A stretch of DNA of 64,000 bases from Rhodoblastus acidophilus (lineage in GTDB: Bacteria > Pseudomonadota > Alphaproteobacteria > Rhizobiales > Beijerinckiaceae), in assembly GCF_025961575.1 (NCBI RefSeq), contig NZ_JAOQNX010000008.1:1-64000 (forward strand). Reading direction: 5' to 3'. The position numbers and the translations under genes were made by a program. Positions 4,224 to 41,082 of this stretch are shown piece by piece. Numbering within the stretch: the stretch's first letter is position 1; every line of letters starts with the position of its first letter. A model generated the notes under the pieces. It saw nothing but the letters and a program-made list of their open reading frames with translations. It was not told the DNA's origin and made no database searches.

Positions 4224-5000
4224 ATGGCCGAATATGAAACAATTCTGGTGGAGCGCCGCGACCGCGTGGCGCTGATCGCGCTCAACCGGCCGAAGCAGCT
4301 CAATGCGCTGAACGTGCAGATGGCGCGCGATATCACCGACGCCGCGCGCGAGCTGGATGCGGACGAGAGCATCGGCTGCATCGTCGTGACCGGCGGCGCC
4401 AAAGCTTTTGCGGCGGGCGCCGACATCAAGGAAATGACTGACCTGTCCTACATGGACGCCCACAGGCTGGACTGGTTTCACCTCTGGGATTTGCTGGCGG
4501 GCGTGCGCAAACCGATGATCGCCGCGGTCTCCGGCTATGCGCTGGGCGGCGGCTGCGAACTGGCGATGATTTGCGATTTCATCATCGCCTCGGACAATGC
4601 GAAATTCGGCCAGCCCGAGATCAAGCTTGGCGTCATGCCCGGCATCGGCGGCTCGCAACGCCTGACCCGCGCCGTGGGCAAAGCCAAGGCGATGGACATG
4701 GTGTTGACCGGCCGCATGATGGATGCGGCGGAAGCCGAACGCTCCGGCCTCGTCTCCCGCGTCGTCCCGCCCGAGCGCCTGATGGACGAGACCTTTGAGG
4801 CCGCGACCCTGATCGCCTCGATGTCGCTGCCGTCGACGCGCATGAACAAGGAGGCGGTGAATGTCGCCTTTGAAACGGGTTTGGCGCAGGGCGTGCGCTT
4901 CGAGCGCCGCCTGTTCCAGGCGACTTTCGCCATGAACGACCAGAAGGAGGGCATGACGGCCTTCGTGCAAAAACGTCCGGCGAGCTTTTCTCATGACTGA
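4224..5000 (+). CDS. Enoyl-CoA hydratase/isomerase family protein
   Basis: A 258-residue crotonase-fold enzyme of normal length. It carries the oxyanion-hole stretches [11 protein letters not shown] (about residue 65) and [42 protein letters not shown] (start about residue 97, shown here by its ends). Both catalytic Glu positions of true hydratases, in GGCELA and in FGQPEIKLG, appear to be present, which favours a hydratase over a hydrolase. In this cluster it would hydrate methacrylyl-CoA. No separate 3-hydroxyisobutyryl-CoA hydrolase is seen in the window. Its 3' end overlaps the next gene by 8 bp. Confidence 0.88.
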
Positions 5001-6567: not shown

Positions 6568-6611
6568 CGGCGCCTCTGACGAAAAACGGCGCTCTCGGCG
6601 CCGGCGCGGTT

Positions 6612-25283: not shown

Positions 25284-25462
25284 AGCAGGCTGCTGAAAAA
25301 CCCGTGGACCGCCCCGCCCTTCGAGACGCCCGCCAAGGCGGGCTCCTCAGGGTGAGGGCTACTCGATTATTCTAAGTAGAGAAAATCCCTCATGGTGAGG
25401 AGGCTGCGAAGCAGCCGTCTCGAACCATGGCCATCGGAACGGGACTTTTTCAGCATCCTGCT
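25284..25462. mobile_element. MITE-like element with terminal inverted repeats (copy A)
   Basis: A 179-bp element starting AGCAGGCTGCTGAAAAA and ending with TTTTTCAGCATCCTGCT, which are 17-bp inverted repeats with one mismatch. Between them is the paired-hairpin repeat: CCTTCGAGACGCCCGCC, CTCCTCAGGGTGAGGG, AT-rich centre, CCCTCATGGTGAGGAGG, CCGTCTCGAACCATGGCC. It has no coding capacity. It follows another common repeat fragment (25226-25280, GCATTTTCGAGCGAAGTGG). The ends suggest past mobilisation by a transposase in trans. It sits in the 338-bp gap after clpB. Confidence 0.78.
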
Positions 25463-25925: not shown

Positions 25926-26136
25926 GTGACATCCTTTGTCTGCCGGCGGACGCCGGAAATCTCCATCGGACGGTCGGGTTATTCGCGCCGCGCGTCGCTG
26001 TCAACTCCGGTCTCGCGCGGATTGACGCGGCGGAGACGAAAAGCTTCGGACAAGCCGCAAAGCCCCGCCCCAGGCGGAGCGGCGCAGGTCGTCCCGCGCC
26101 GCGCGCGCTCGAGCCCGTTCGCTCGAAAATGCTCTT

Positions 26137-26304
26137 AGCAGGCTGCTGAAAAACCCGGGCCCGCCCCCGCCCTTCGAGACGCCCGCCAAGGCGGGCTCCT
26201 CAGGGTGAGGGCTACTGTATTGTTATACAATAAGAAACCCTCATGGTGAGGAGGCTGCGCAGCAGCCTGCTGAGCATAGCCATGAGAACGTTTTTTCAGC
26301 AGCC
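26137..26304. mobile_element. MITE-like element with terminal inverted repeats (copy B)
   Basis: This copy begins AGCAGGCTGCTGAAAAACCCG. It carries the same two hairpin arms around a TTGTTATACAATAA centre, itself a short palindrome, and ends TTTTTTCAGCAGCCGG, the inverted form of the left end. Its right end lies about 7 bp from the stop codon of the radical SAM gene, so it may act as that gene's 3' structure. A truncated copy of the GCATTTTCGAGC repeat flanks it on the left (26118-26133), as at copy A. The rest of the 385-bp gap 25926-26310 has no gene. Confidence 0.75.
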
Positions 26305-26310
26305 GGTTGC

Positions 26311-27696
26311 TCAGCCGACGCCGATGCTGCAGGAGGTTTGCGCGCCCTCGTCCCAACCGTCCCAGAGAAAATCCTCGTGACGGCCATCGGCGATCAGCCG
26401 CAAGGCGTAGCGCGTCTGCTCCTTGTAGAACTCGCAGAACGCGCCCTTCTTCTCCATGCCGCCATTCATCTCCTGGGCTTCCGCCGGACAGGGCGAGCCG
26501 CAGAAATGGCGGATGGCGCAGGTGGCGCAGTCCTCGATGTCCTCGACGTTGCGGCCGGTCACCAGCCGGAACGGCTCGCTTTCCAGCACATCGGCGATTT
26601 CGTCCCGATACAGATTGCCGCCGGCGAAATGCGGCAGGCCGATGAATTCGCTGCAGGGGAACAGATCGCCGCCCGGCGCGAGGGCGAAAAAGCTGCGACC
26701 GCCGCCGCAGGGCGAAATATCGCACATCAGCCGCCGCGCTGTCGGCGCCAGAATGGCGATCAGGATATTGGCGAAATTGGCGACCACCAGTTTCCGCCCG
26801 GTCTCCTTATAGAGCTGGTGGGTGCGCTCCAGGGCGGCGACGAAAGCCTTGGCGACCTGGGTTTCGTCGCCATTGACCTCGCGGGCGCCCGGCATGGTGC
26901 AGCGGGTGACGTTGAGCATGCAGGCGGGCACGCGGTTTTCGTGGAAGAATTCCACCATCTGCGTGAGATAGGGCAGGTTTTCCTGGGTCATCGTGCAAAT
27001 GACGTTGTAGCCGGGATAGCCATCCAGCAGTTTCATGGCGCGCAGGACATGGTCGGACACGCCCTCGCCGCTCCAGCGTTTGCGCGTGCGGTTGGCGACC
27101 TCTTCGACCGGCGCGTCGAGCGACAGGCCGATGCCGACGCCGCGCTCGGTGAGGAATTTGACCGCCGCTTCATCGAGCAAGGTCGAGTTGGTCTGCACGC
27201 CGAAGCGGAATTTTTCGCGGAACGCATCGATGCCGGCGAAAATGGCCTCGCGCGCCAGCAGCGGTTCGGCGCCATGAAAAATCACCTGCGGCAGGCGGTC
27301 TTCCGGCATGTGGCCGCGGAAATAGCCGTGCAGCCGCTCCAGCGCGTCCAAAACCTCGGCTGTGTCCATCTGCTTGCCGCGCTTGCGCATCTCGCCGGGG
27401 ATGTAGCAATAGGCGCAATTGAGGTTGCAGCGCTCGGTGGCGTTGAAATAGACCGCCGACGGTTTCAGGTGAAACCGCAACATGTCCATTTCGCGGGCGA
27501 AATCGTCGCCCTTTTCGCCAAAAGCGTCGCGCAGCGCGCCGCCGGCCAGCGCATCCGAAACGTCTTCCTTGCGCACCAGGCCCCAGAAGGCGGTGTCGGG
27601 CTCGACCAAGGCGACATGGGTGGGGTGATCGATGTCGAAGACGGCGAGAGGGCTCCTTTCGGAGCCCTCCGCGAAATTGCGCGGATGCGCGCTCAA
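26311..27696 (-). CDS. cbpB: Radical SAM/SPASM peptide-modifying enzyme, CbpB-like
   Basis: A 461-residue radical SAM enzyme. The SAM [4Fe-4S] motif CNLNCAYC is at Cys90, Cys94 and Cys97. The C-terminal SPASM region has Cys325, 330, 348 (GDLFPCSEF), 390, 393, 399, 403 and 421, enough for two auxiliary clusters, and the protein ends SCSIGVG. Residues 1-75 form an extra N-terminal domain. It starts at TTG 27696, overlapping the stop of the 44-codon peptide gene by TTGA, so they are translationally coupled. Layout and peptide match my memory of the CbpA/CbpB pair behind cobalamin riboswitches. The modification it makes is unknown. Antisense long frames here are shadows. Confidence 0.82.
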   Translation of the reverse strand: MSAHPRNFAEGSERSPLAVFDIDHPTHVALVEPDTAFWGLVRKEDVSDALAGGALRDAFGEKGDDFAREMDMLRFHLKPSAVYFNATERCNLNCAYCYIPGEMRKRGKQMDTAEVLDALERLHGYFRGHMPEDRLPQVIFHGAEPLLAREAIFAGIDAFREKFRFGVQTNSTLLDEAAVKFLTERGVGIGLSLDAPVEEVANRTRKRWSGEGVSDHVLRAMKLLDGYPGYNVICTMTQENLPYLTQMVEFFHENRVPACMLNVTRCTMPGAREVNGDETQVAKAFVAALERTHQLYKETGRKLVVANFANILIAILAPTARRLMCDISPCGGGRSFFALAPGGDLFPCSEFIGLPHFAGGNLYRDEIADVLESEPFRLVTGRNVEDIEDCATCAIRHFCGSPCPAEAQEMNGGMEKKGAFCEFYKEQTRYALRLIADGRHEDFLWDGWDEGAQTSCSIGVG

Positions 27697-27827
27697 CGCT
27701 TCACCTGCTTGTCCATGAGGACATAGTGCGACAGGCCCGTGCCCTCGGCGTCGCAGGTTTTGCGGAGGGCGATCACCGCCGGGCGGGCGGCGGGCTTGGT
27801 CTCAGTGCAATCAGGGGTCTTGTTCAC
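27693..27827 (-). CDS. cbpA: CbpA-like RiPP precursor peptide (44 aa)
   Basis: A small peptide gene directly before the radical SAM gene. From GTG 27827 it reads MNKTPDCTETKPAARPAVIA and continues LRKTCDAEGTGLSHYVLMDK, ending QVKR. The GTG has GGAG seven bases upstream, which decides this start. An in-frame ATG at 27893 would add 22 residues (MERISASACAW...) that look like translated leader RNA. The C-terminal half, with Cys25, Gly-Thr-Gly, Tyr35 and a basic end, is the likely conserved and modified part. It is read through to the enzyme by a TTGA overlap. Expression should be set by the cobalamin riboswitch just upstream. Confidence 0.78.
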   Translation of the reverse strand: MNKTPDCTETKPAARPAVIALRKTCDAEGTGLSHYVLMDKQVKR

Positions 27828-27915
27828 GGCATTGCTCCGATGCGCAAAGAAGGACGTCGGCCAAGCGCATGCGCTCGCCGAAATCCTTTCCATCGGATTT
27901 CGCCCTTCGATTCAC

Positions 27916-28075
27916 CCATCCAGCAGGTCTTCTGGCTCTCGGATCGTCCGAAGCGCGACGTCTTCCCAGCGGGGTGAACCCCGCCAGTGACTGGTTTTTC
28001 ACCGAGTCCGCTCCGTCCCCGATTACAGCGGCGGGACCGCCGCGGATTTGCACCGCGTTCCGGGATACTGGATGG
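27916..28075 (-). ncRNA. Cobalamin (B12) riboswitch upstream of cbpA-cbpB
   Basis: Read on the minus strand. The closing stem pairs CCATCCAG (28075-28068) with CTGGATGG (27923-27916). Inside are GGTGCAAATCC, the GGCGGTCCCGCCGCTGTAA core, ACCAGTCACTGG followed by a CGGGG/CCCCG hairpin and GGGAAG, and the B12 box AGCCAGAAGACCTGC at 27937-27923. These are the conserved blocks of the cobalamin riboswitch in order. No terminator with a U-tract follows. A hairpin CGAAATCC/GGATTTCG (27902-27879) lies between aptamer and peptide start, so control of translation or Rho access is more likely. Confidence 0.92.
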
Positions 28076-28117
28076 CGGCCGGTTTAATCCGATCCGCAAT
28101 CCTGTCAAGCCAGACGA

Positions 28118-40259: not shown

Positions 40260-41082
40260 GGACGCCCTCTAAGATTGTCACATTGGCAAACCTAGCGTCA
40301 CAGTTGCAGTTACGCAATTGATTTATATCAAACACATTGATCTTGTTTAAAAATAATTCGAATAACTCAGGAAAAAGACCTCTCTCGGATCGAACCTCGC
40401 GCCAGACGATACAGGCAAAAAGCGACACCGCGACCGTCACAACTTGCAAGTTGCAGAGCAACACATGATGACAACATCATCGAACGACACGGTAGAGCCT
40501 GACGTTTCTGCGACCGCCGCAGCGGCATAGCGGCACGTCAAAGACGCAACACCCGGAAGCAAACTCTGCAATATAGCTGCAAGATACCGGATTTAATACG
40601 CACATACGCATGAAATCATACTGCCTATGCGATATTTTTATTAATTTTTGCATCTGCACACCGCAGATTTAAACAGAAAACACTTGTCATGAAAATCGCG
40701 CATGCGACGCGCGCCGAGCTTACGACCCGCCCGCCGAGCGAGTCGCCGAGGATAGTAACACCAACGATACCCATCGTATTGATGAGTAAAACCGCGCTCC
40801 ACGAAAACCGGCGAATCGCGGCGGCGCGAGCGGGCCGAGCGCCGCAAGCCGAGACGGGCGCCGCGACATCGCCGATGCGCTCGACACGGAGGACATCGAA
40901 GCCCGCACGCGAAATTGACTTATCTCCCCGGCAAGGCTATTGAAGCCGACCTCGCAAGAGACGACATTTTTCGCACACCGACCCGCGCGCGACGCGGGAG
41001 GTCACCGCCCGGCAGCGCGATGCGCCCCCGGGCGCGATGTGCGTTGAACGCGCGTCTGGCGCGAGCCCAAAGGGAACAGACA
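40260..41082. other. AT-rich intergenic region before ffh
   Basis: Apart from the FNR-type box, I find no supported gene in these 820 bp. The stretch 40290-40690 is markedly AT-rich for this genome (ATCAAACACATTGATCTTG, AAAAATAATTCGAATAAC). Short frames on either strand (40243-40464, 40477-40659, 40689-40943) lack ribosome sites or domain matches. It is probably foreign or decayed DNA plus the ffh promoter, which lies somewhere before 41083. Confidence 0.4.
40318..40331 (-). promoter_or_regulatory. FNR/FixK-type box
   Basis: TTGATTTATATCAA is a perfect match to the FNR/FixK consensus TTGAT-N4-ATCAA. Its centre is at 40324.5. If it works as a class II activator site, transcription on the minus strand would start near 40283. 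A TAGGTT -10-like hexamer (40294-40289) lies at the expected place, and the GTG of the small gene follows 24 bases later. Low-oxygen induction is the expected effect. Confidence 0.68.

Follow-up and report, generated by a model that had tools for sequence, protein, structure and literature searches.

On the minus strand of a 64,000-nucleotide stretch of DNA from Rhodoblastus acidophilus (GCF_025961575.1, contig NZ_JAOQNX010000008.1, positions 1-64,000 of the forward strand; hereafter the window, from whose first base coordinates are counted unless another locus is named), a cobalamin riboswitch, the gene for a short precursor peptide (cbpA), and the gene for a radical S-adenosylmethionine (SAM)/SPASM enzyme (cbpB) follow one another from 28087 to 26311. 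This layout is read from the sequence together with open reading frames (ORFs) and matches to Rfam and NCBIfam. With a probability of roughly 0.6, cbpAB is a B12-regulated unit for a ribosomally synthesized and post-translationally modified peptide (RiPP), the product of which acts inside the producing cell, in the cobamide economy, when B12 is scarce. The observations on which this proposal is based are the family membership of both proteins, the riboswitch match, an association that recurs across phyla, and some genomic linkage to B12 genes. The unit consists of the following elements:

27905..28087, minus strand: aptamer of the cobalamin riboswitch (RF00174, 90.1 bits, gathering score 31.5; full length, model positions 1-189 of 189)
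27879..27902, minus strand: leader hairpin directly 3' of the aptamer, with arms CGAAATCC and GGATTTCG and loop GATGGAAA (read directly; 18 aligned leaders)
27891..27896, minus strand: CCGATG, complementary to the ribosome-site segment and a possible sequestering partner (18 leaders compared)
27837..27842, minus strand: CATCGG, overlapping the ribosome-binding site GGAG at 27838-27835 (sequence read, leader comparison)
27693..27827, minus strand: cbpA, 44-residue precursor peptide with a GTG start (TIGR04164, 57.5 bits, cut-off 35, residues 18-42)
26311..27696, minus strand: cbpB, radical SAM/SPASM peptide-modifying enzyme of 461 residues with a TTG start (TIGR04163, 713.3 bits, cut-off 375)

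In the aptamer, the closing stem is formed by CCATCCAG (28075-28068) and CTGGATGG (27923-27916), and the B12 box is also readable. The GGAG ribosome site lies close 5' of the cbpA GTG, and the TTG start of cbpB (27696) overlaps the cbpA stop (27693). CbpA matches the complete profile of TIGR04164 ("modified peptide precursor CbpA", 1-25 of 25) and CbpB that of TIGR04163 ("peptide-modifying radical SAM enzyme CbpB", 1-428 of 428). Thus, the pair lies far over both curated cut-offs, has the gene order of the named CbpA/CbpB family, and does not differ from it in kind. CbpB also exceeds the cut-offs for PF04055 and PF13186. An original prediction, made from the letters of the DNA, had named this family, and the profile matches confirm the name; the aptamer, closing stem, B12 box, GTG-start peptide, GGAG, and overlapping TTG-start enzyme all lie where it had placed them, and the riboswitch that it had called complete is so by the Rfam match.

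The same three-part arrangement is found well beyond Rhodoblastus. In 84,980 species genomes scanned, 419 stretches encode a CbpB relative; the loci compared here are the best 80 of these (57 to 90% identity over the best segment). They come, many of them as metagenome bins, from Alpha-, Beta- and Gammaproteobacteria, Desulfovibrionaceae, Syntrophales, Planctomycetes, Verrucomicrobia, Lentisphaerae, Nitrospirae, Nitrospinales, Omnitrophica, Melainabacteria, Dehalococcoidia, and Firmicutes. A cbpA gene is present directly upstream of cbpB in 79/79 loci that have upstream DNA (L054 has none), and RF00174 is found on the coding strand 5' of cbpA in 71 of the 75 loci with enough of it; L054, L082, L084, L087, and L100 are omitted from the latter count because their contigs start too close upstream. 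(An earlier screen by regular expression, now superseded by Rfam, had given 60/79.) Since both proteins pass curated cut-offs and the three-part order recurs across phyla, chance can be excluded. Within the genus, CbpB is over the cut-off in 4 of 11 genomes, and a fifth holds a partial CbpB. When the window is compared with three Rhodoblastus loci, it aligns only from 26309/26314 to 28074/28112, at 84 to 89% identity, the sole further alignment being an unrelated 144-base match in L031. By these alignments, riboswitch, cbpA, and cbpB are the entire conserved block among the Rhodoblastus loci and the surroundings differ; the three appear to form a self-contained, portable unit. On a plasmid of Methylovirgula sp. 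HY1 (L120, 11861-16810), cbpA-cbpB is located about 2 kb before pqqA-pqqD-pqqE, and the names CbpA/CbpB are used in a public plasmid record.

The N-terminal part of CbpA varies in length and sequence among the relatives, and the C-terminal part hardly varies at all. G13, G15, L16, S17, and H18 are identical in 79/79 relatives, residue 19 is Tyr in 74 of the 79 rows and Phe in 5, and the motif R[KRTQ]xC.{2,4}GxGLSH[YF][IV][LFM] is found in every one of them; in the window, the fixed core reads RKTCDAEGTGLSHYVL. Conservation of the peptide's C-terminus, the loss of which the original prediction had named beforehand as a point of refutation, is therefore found throughout. Two precursors (L085 and L090) hold two copies of the core each, which suggests that the core is what does the work in the peptide. 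An alternative in-frame ATG at 27893 would give a 66-residue ORF. However, this ATG lies inside the loop of the conserved leader hairpin and the residues it would add are not conserved among the relatives; consequently, it was rejected and the GTG start is kept. A ribosomally made precursor with a conserved core adjoins its predicted modifying enzyme, as is usual for RiPPs. A Tyr-derived quinone or phenol was rejected as the product because of the Phe found at position 19 in 5/79 relatives. The search for a structurally solved relative of CbpA gave a single match (E 0.077), which is taken as chance.

CbpB has the residues expected of a radical SAM/SPASM maturase. In an alignment of 62 sequences (that of the window and those of 61 of the 80 loci), C90, C94, and C97 of the CxxxCxxC motif are invariant, as are Cys 325, 330, 348, 390, 393, 399, 403, and 421 of the SPASM region, which bears out both the radical SAM triad and the "at least eight" SPASM cysteines that had been predicted; C266 is likewise invariant. 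We take this pattern to represent the ligands for two auxiliary clusters, following the scheme of the anaerobic sulfatase-maturating enzyme (anSME). The AlphaFold model of CbpB has a mean pLDDT (predicted local distance difference test) of 89. Its residues 14-79 form three strands and two helices with a pLDDT of 92, and the model suggests that this N-terminal part may be a RiPP recognition element (RRE).

Among characterized enzymes, the best fold match of CbpB is CteB, a maturase of SCIFF (six cysteines in forty-five residues) sactipeptides (5WHY/5WGG; Z 33.7, root-mean-square deviation [rmsd] 3.4), with which it aligns over 379 residues from model residue 16 at 22% identity. However, CbpB scores only 89.6 bits against the SCIFF maturase model TIGR03974 (cut-off 425), and the SCIFF peptide has six cysteines, unlike CbpA. 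Tied with CteB is anSME (PDB 4K36-4K39; Z 33, rmsd 2.5, 343 residues). The SPASM cysteines of CbpB are of the kind that bind two auxiliary clusters in anSME; yet the score against the anSME family TIGR03942 is 101.5 bits (cut-off 349.45), and the predicted substrate of CbpB is a dedicated small peptide, unlike that of anSME. The next NCBIfam match of CbpB after its own family, the PapA/PapB ranthipeptide model NF047865, reaches 121.4 bits, far below its cut-off of 340. PMC9413430 describes a CX3D motif in PapA and a PapB that tolerates spacings of 0 to 6. The distance from the Cys of CbpA to its invariant Gly matches the CX3D spacing, except in L038, which has one residue more. However, the residue at +4 from the Cys is Gly, which lacks a beta carbon, where the PapA motif has D; given this and the tolerance of PapB for other spacings, the Cys-Gly spacing proves nothing about a thioether.

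Cobalamin riboswitches usually switch genes off when B12 is present; by analogy, the cbpAB unit is probably induced when B12 is scarce. This control seems to be exerted through two kinds of output stage, as judged from the leader sequences. Outside the alpha clade, 42 of 44 units have a terminator-like hairpin with a T run behind it in the stretch from the aptamer to cbpA, in contrast to 0 of 27 units within the clade and 5 of 200 control segments. Thus, B12 control has seemingly been kept while the output stage changed. In the alpha clade, to which the window belongs, leaders carry the hairpin at 27879-27902 and the complementary segments CCGATG and CATCGG. These were scored in 18 of 28 extracted alpha leaders, ten with differing leaders having been left out before alignment. 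The six inner pairs of the hairpin are standard in 18/18; most of the changes in them affect one side only, and one alters both sides (A-U to G-C). The CCGATG/CATCGG pairing shows one double change, CCTATG with CATAGG, in L033; in five leaders the last pair has become G-U by a change on one side, and in three (L037, L038, and L047) a pair is broken. Regardless of the output stage, nearly all units have a loop motif, ATGG(N)A, 3' of the aptamer, and so the loop may contact the aptamer. For such a kissing loop between aptamer and leader hairpin, the leaders compared showed no clear covariation and yielded no partner for the loop.

The four loci in which Rfam places no RF00174 directly before cbpA are L077, L079, L094, and L095. 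In L079, the riboswitch is present at the head of an operon (4791-4997), at the end of which cbpAB is located. In L077 (3287-5524), no riboswitch was found before cbpAB; upstream of this unit there is a gene resembling a corrinoid activase (AcsV), whose 380 bits fall short of the cut-off of 800.

Linkage to B12 metabolism is seen first in the riboswitches of the same genome, which contains four RF00174 matches over the gathering score and a fifth below it. The three besides that of cbpAB precede a BtuB-like receptor and a CbiZ-like gene, cobW-cobN, and bluB, respectively; the TonB receptor has as its best match the B12 receptor family (248.7 bits, under the cut-off). In PMC3766115, four classes of cobalamin-riboswitch target are named: B12 synthesis, B12 transport, cobalt transport, and isozymes of B12-dependent enzymes. 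The other units of the genome, which are under the same RF00174 control, fit these classes. However, a RiPP unit such as cbpAB falls in none of the four named there.

In several genomes, the linkage is physical. The L079 operon, all on one strand behind its riboswitch, reads cbiK-cbiL-cbiD-cbiEF-cbiG-cbiH-cbiJ-cobD-cbiB-cbpA-cbpB, the cbiK match being weak and below its cut-off. In a Neptunomonas bin (L085, 2919-4559), cbpAB is directly followed by cbiB-cobD, with cobD cut by the contig end, and in a Lentisphaerae bin (L086, 8981-10108) it is directly followed by cobT. In L034, cobQ adjoins cbpAB and cobW-cobN is near; L103 has the order cobB-cbpAB-bluB; and Planctomycete cbpAB units stand back to back with a riboswitch and a cobT-cobS cluster on the opposite strand. 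Two Syntrophales bins have, as the next ORF behind cbpB, a short stretch resembling CobT: in L069 (2110-2598) it has 163 residues, with an NCBIfam match to the first 139 positions, and in L080 (9269-9574) it has 102 residues and no NCBIfam hit. These pieces are perhaps remnants.

Overall, B12-specific genes are found near 14/80 units (908 kb of flank) versus 3/76 control windows (889 kb) taken from the same genomes (two-sided Fisher p 0.009). Of the 14 seeds in the neighbour scan, nine came from cbp loci; these counts rest on the nine specific seeds, of which six are from cbp loci. The controls had numbered 80, of which four with less than 2,000 bases were dropped. When each locus is scored without its own seeds, the count remains 14/80. 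The 14 include the weak members L055 (54 bits), L080 (65), and L093 (81). On a tree of the 62 CbpB sequences, a label for a nearby B12 gene requires 9 changes for 11 labelled rows. This label took in L080 (the short CobT-like ORF), L044 (a BtuB-like neighbour), and L077 (AcsV-like) and left out the weak L055 and L093; a strict version without L080, L044, and L077 requires 7 changes for 8 rows. Thus, the B12 neighbourhoods are largely independent of one another. The excess of B12 genes near cbpAB is moderate, and the single-strand operons carry more weight than the statistics.

The genomes that carry cbpB differ in their capacity to make B12. CobS is present in 45 of 50 and CbiC in 38 of 50; CbiJ is missing as well from 11 of the 12 genomes that lack CbiC, including the 5.1-Mb isolate genome of L090. 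Both are imperfect markers: many of the CbiC-less genomes are possibly incomplete bins, and CbiJ was also missed in one of four CbiC-bearing genomes tested. Nonetheless, with both genes missing, 11 of the 50 genomes probably build no corrin ring, and cbpAB apparently occurs in corrinoid salvagers as well as in synthesizers, to go by gene content. A role tied only to corrin-ring synthesis was rejected because of the 12/50 genomes without CbiC, 11 of them also without CbiJ. B12-binding domains are encoded in 16/16 cbpB genomes tested, yet also in 12/14 control genomes. From the counts of CbiC, CobS, CbiJ, and B12-binding domains, the unit tracks B12 use and assembly or salvage, not strictly ring synthesis.

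These features suggest how the unit may work. The cobalamin riboswitch would control one short mRNA encoding both CbpA and CbpB. At low cobalamin, this mRNA would be completed in the units of the terminator type, which make up most of those outside the alpha clade, or translated in those of the ribosome-site type, as in the clade of the window. CbpB is then predicted to modify the core RKTCDAEGTGLSHYVL by means of a 5'-deoxyadenosyl radical together with its two auxiliary iron-sulphur clusters; the likeliest single guess for the chemistry is a cross-link (thioether) from the invariant core Cys. The product would probably serve the acquisition, tailoring, or loading of corrinoids, presumably in the cytoplasm. 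Within this general role, a peptide that binds or handles a corrinoid or cobalt through its invariant Cys and His is our first choice, a tentative one that we would expect to fail more often than to hold.

Several results weigh against a B12-related RiPP unit of this kind. There is no B12-specific gene beside the cbpAB of the window, and the seed scan found none in the available flanks of 66/80 units. The statistical excess shrinks to 11/80 versus 3/76 (p 0.048) when only hits of at least 100 bits are counted, and to 9/75 versus 3/76 (p 0.078) without the five loci from which seeds were taken. For L077, L094, and L095 there is no riboswitch upstream within the available DNA. Ring synthesis is not required for cbpB, as CbiC occurs in 38/50 cbpB-bearing genomes and in 38/55 relatives without CbpB; de novo synthesis was rejected as a marker of cbpB presence, the 5/5 of cbpB-bearing relatives with CbiC (one of which, G007, has a partial CbpB only) being no telling difference from 38/55. 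Structural comparison of residues 14-79 did not confirm the RRE: TbiB1 and CteB are among the Foldseek top four, but with E values of 0.8 to 1.3, and VIA-align gives Z 2.7 for CteB and its best overall score, 3.3, for a release factor.

The product might instead supply cobalt, the modified peptide being a cobalt chaperone or metallophore that feeds corrin-ring synthesis. The invariance of the core Cys and His is consistent with this, as is cobW-cobN, which forms another riboswitch unit in the same genome and lies near cbpAB in L034; in addition, cobalt transporters are a known class of cobalamin-riboswitch target (PMC3766115). However, a cobalt feed for ring synthesis is hard to reconcile with the cbpB-bearing genomes that probably build no ring (the 12/50 without CbiC, 11 of them without CbiJ), and no transporter common to most units was found in the flanking DNA of the 80 loci. 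We consider this explanation unlikely. The original prediction had suggested a tie to cobalamin or cobalt handling; this tie gains from the B12 neighbours in a minority of loci and from the other riboswitch units of the same genome, but a narrow reading as cobalt supply loses from the apparent salvagers that keep cbpAB.

Alternatively, a cofactor-like or effector peptide could spare B12 by letting a B12-independent route replace a B12-dependent one, in the manner of riboswitch-controlled isozymes. Such isozymes are one of the four target classes in PMC3766115, all 16 genomes tested encode B12-binding domains, and the extreme conservation of the core suits a cofactor. However, the B12-related genes among the annotated recurring neighbours are for synthesis and assembly, not isozymes (the annotation covered some of the recurring clusters, with 20 proteins plus selected further ones), and the Phe at position 19 in 5/79 relatives makes a Tyr-derived quinone of the pyrroloquinoline quinone (PQQ) type unlikely. 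Sparing of this kind is also doubtful.

That the peptide is exported, as a signal or antimicrobial released under B12 limitation, has very little probability. A HlyD-type adaptor gene does lie downstream on the same strand in one clade (L073, L074, L084, and L097), followed in L074 (9492-12797) by ABC transporter genes of the RbbA type, and two precursors have two cores, as is known of RiPPs. However, no exporter, protease, or immunity gene is common to most loci in the flanks examined, and the core barely varies across phyla, unlike most antimicrobials. CbpA as an unmodified regulatory leader ORF for cbpB can practically be dismissed: it is short, lies directly 3' of the riboswitch, and in many loci either overlaps cbpB or adjoins it, but its core amino acids are conserved in 79/79 relatives, L085 and L090 carry tandem cores, and radical SAM/SPASM maturases are usually paired with a precursor.

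The surroundings of the unit add no partner. An acyltransferase gene upstream and ClpB downstream show, by their profile matches, no tie to cbpAB; with two small ORFs that have no match, they are the neighbours tested, and among them there is no transporter, protease, or immunity gene, as had been predicted. Comparison of neighbours across the 80 loci likewise gave no operon partner common to most units, and a conserved partner was rejected. A short repeat at 26134-26304, with terminal inverted repeats GGCTGCTGAAAAA/TTTTTCAGCAGCC (arms at 26141-26153 and 26292-26304), comes to within 7 bases of the cbpB stop and lies where homology to the other Rhodoblastus units breaks off. The stretch 26130-26310 has 43 match rows within its own genome, itself counted, and in the window similar copies begin at 25284 and 17293, with a further one of just 60% identity at 6594; the repeat looks like a miniature inverted-repeat transposable element. 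Elsewhere in the window, RF01793 (ffh sRNA) matches at 40991-41042 with 54.9 bits.

The pair was already known as a named NCBIfam family, and its name there, "cobo_pep", hints that the authors of the family had noticed the link to cobalamin; added here are the riboswitch counts, the output stages, and the linkage to B12 genes. A literature search by name or close description, whose scope excluded subscription papers and preprints, gave no paper on CbpA/CbpB as radical SAM proteins among the matches listed, and the word matches to "CbpA"/"CbpB" that were inspected are journal codes within DOIs, not proteins.

At somewhat less than even odds, cbpAB is the first RiPP devoted to B12 metabolism: a nearly invariant peptide, made only when B12 is short, that would bind, load, tailor, or reduce corrinoids in the cell. 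If so, it would represent a fifth class of cobalamin-riboswitch target. The unit is compact, with two genes and a switch in about 1.8 kb, and is present in named strains of Rhodoblastus, Magnetospirillum, and Aromatoleum. A conserved peptide-maturase pair under a B12 switch in many phyla suggests a missing component of the B12 economy. A product that binds or remakes corrinoids would take its place beside PQQ and mycofactocin among the ribosomally encoded small molecules of primary metabolism.

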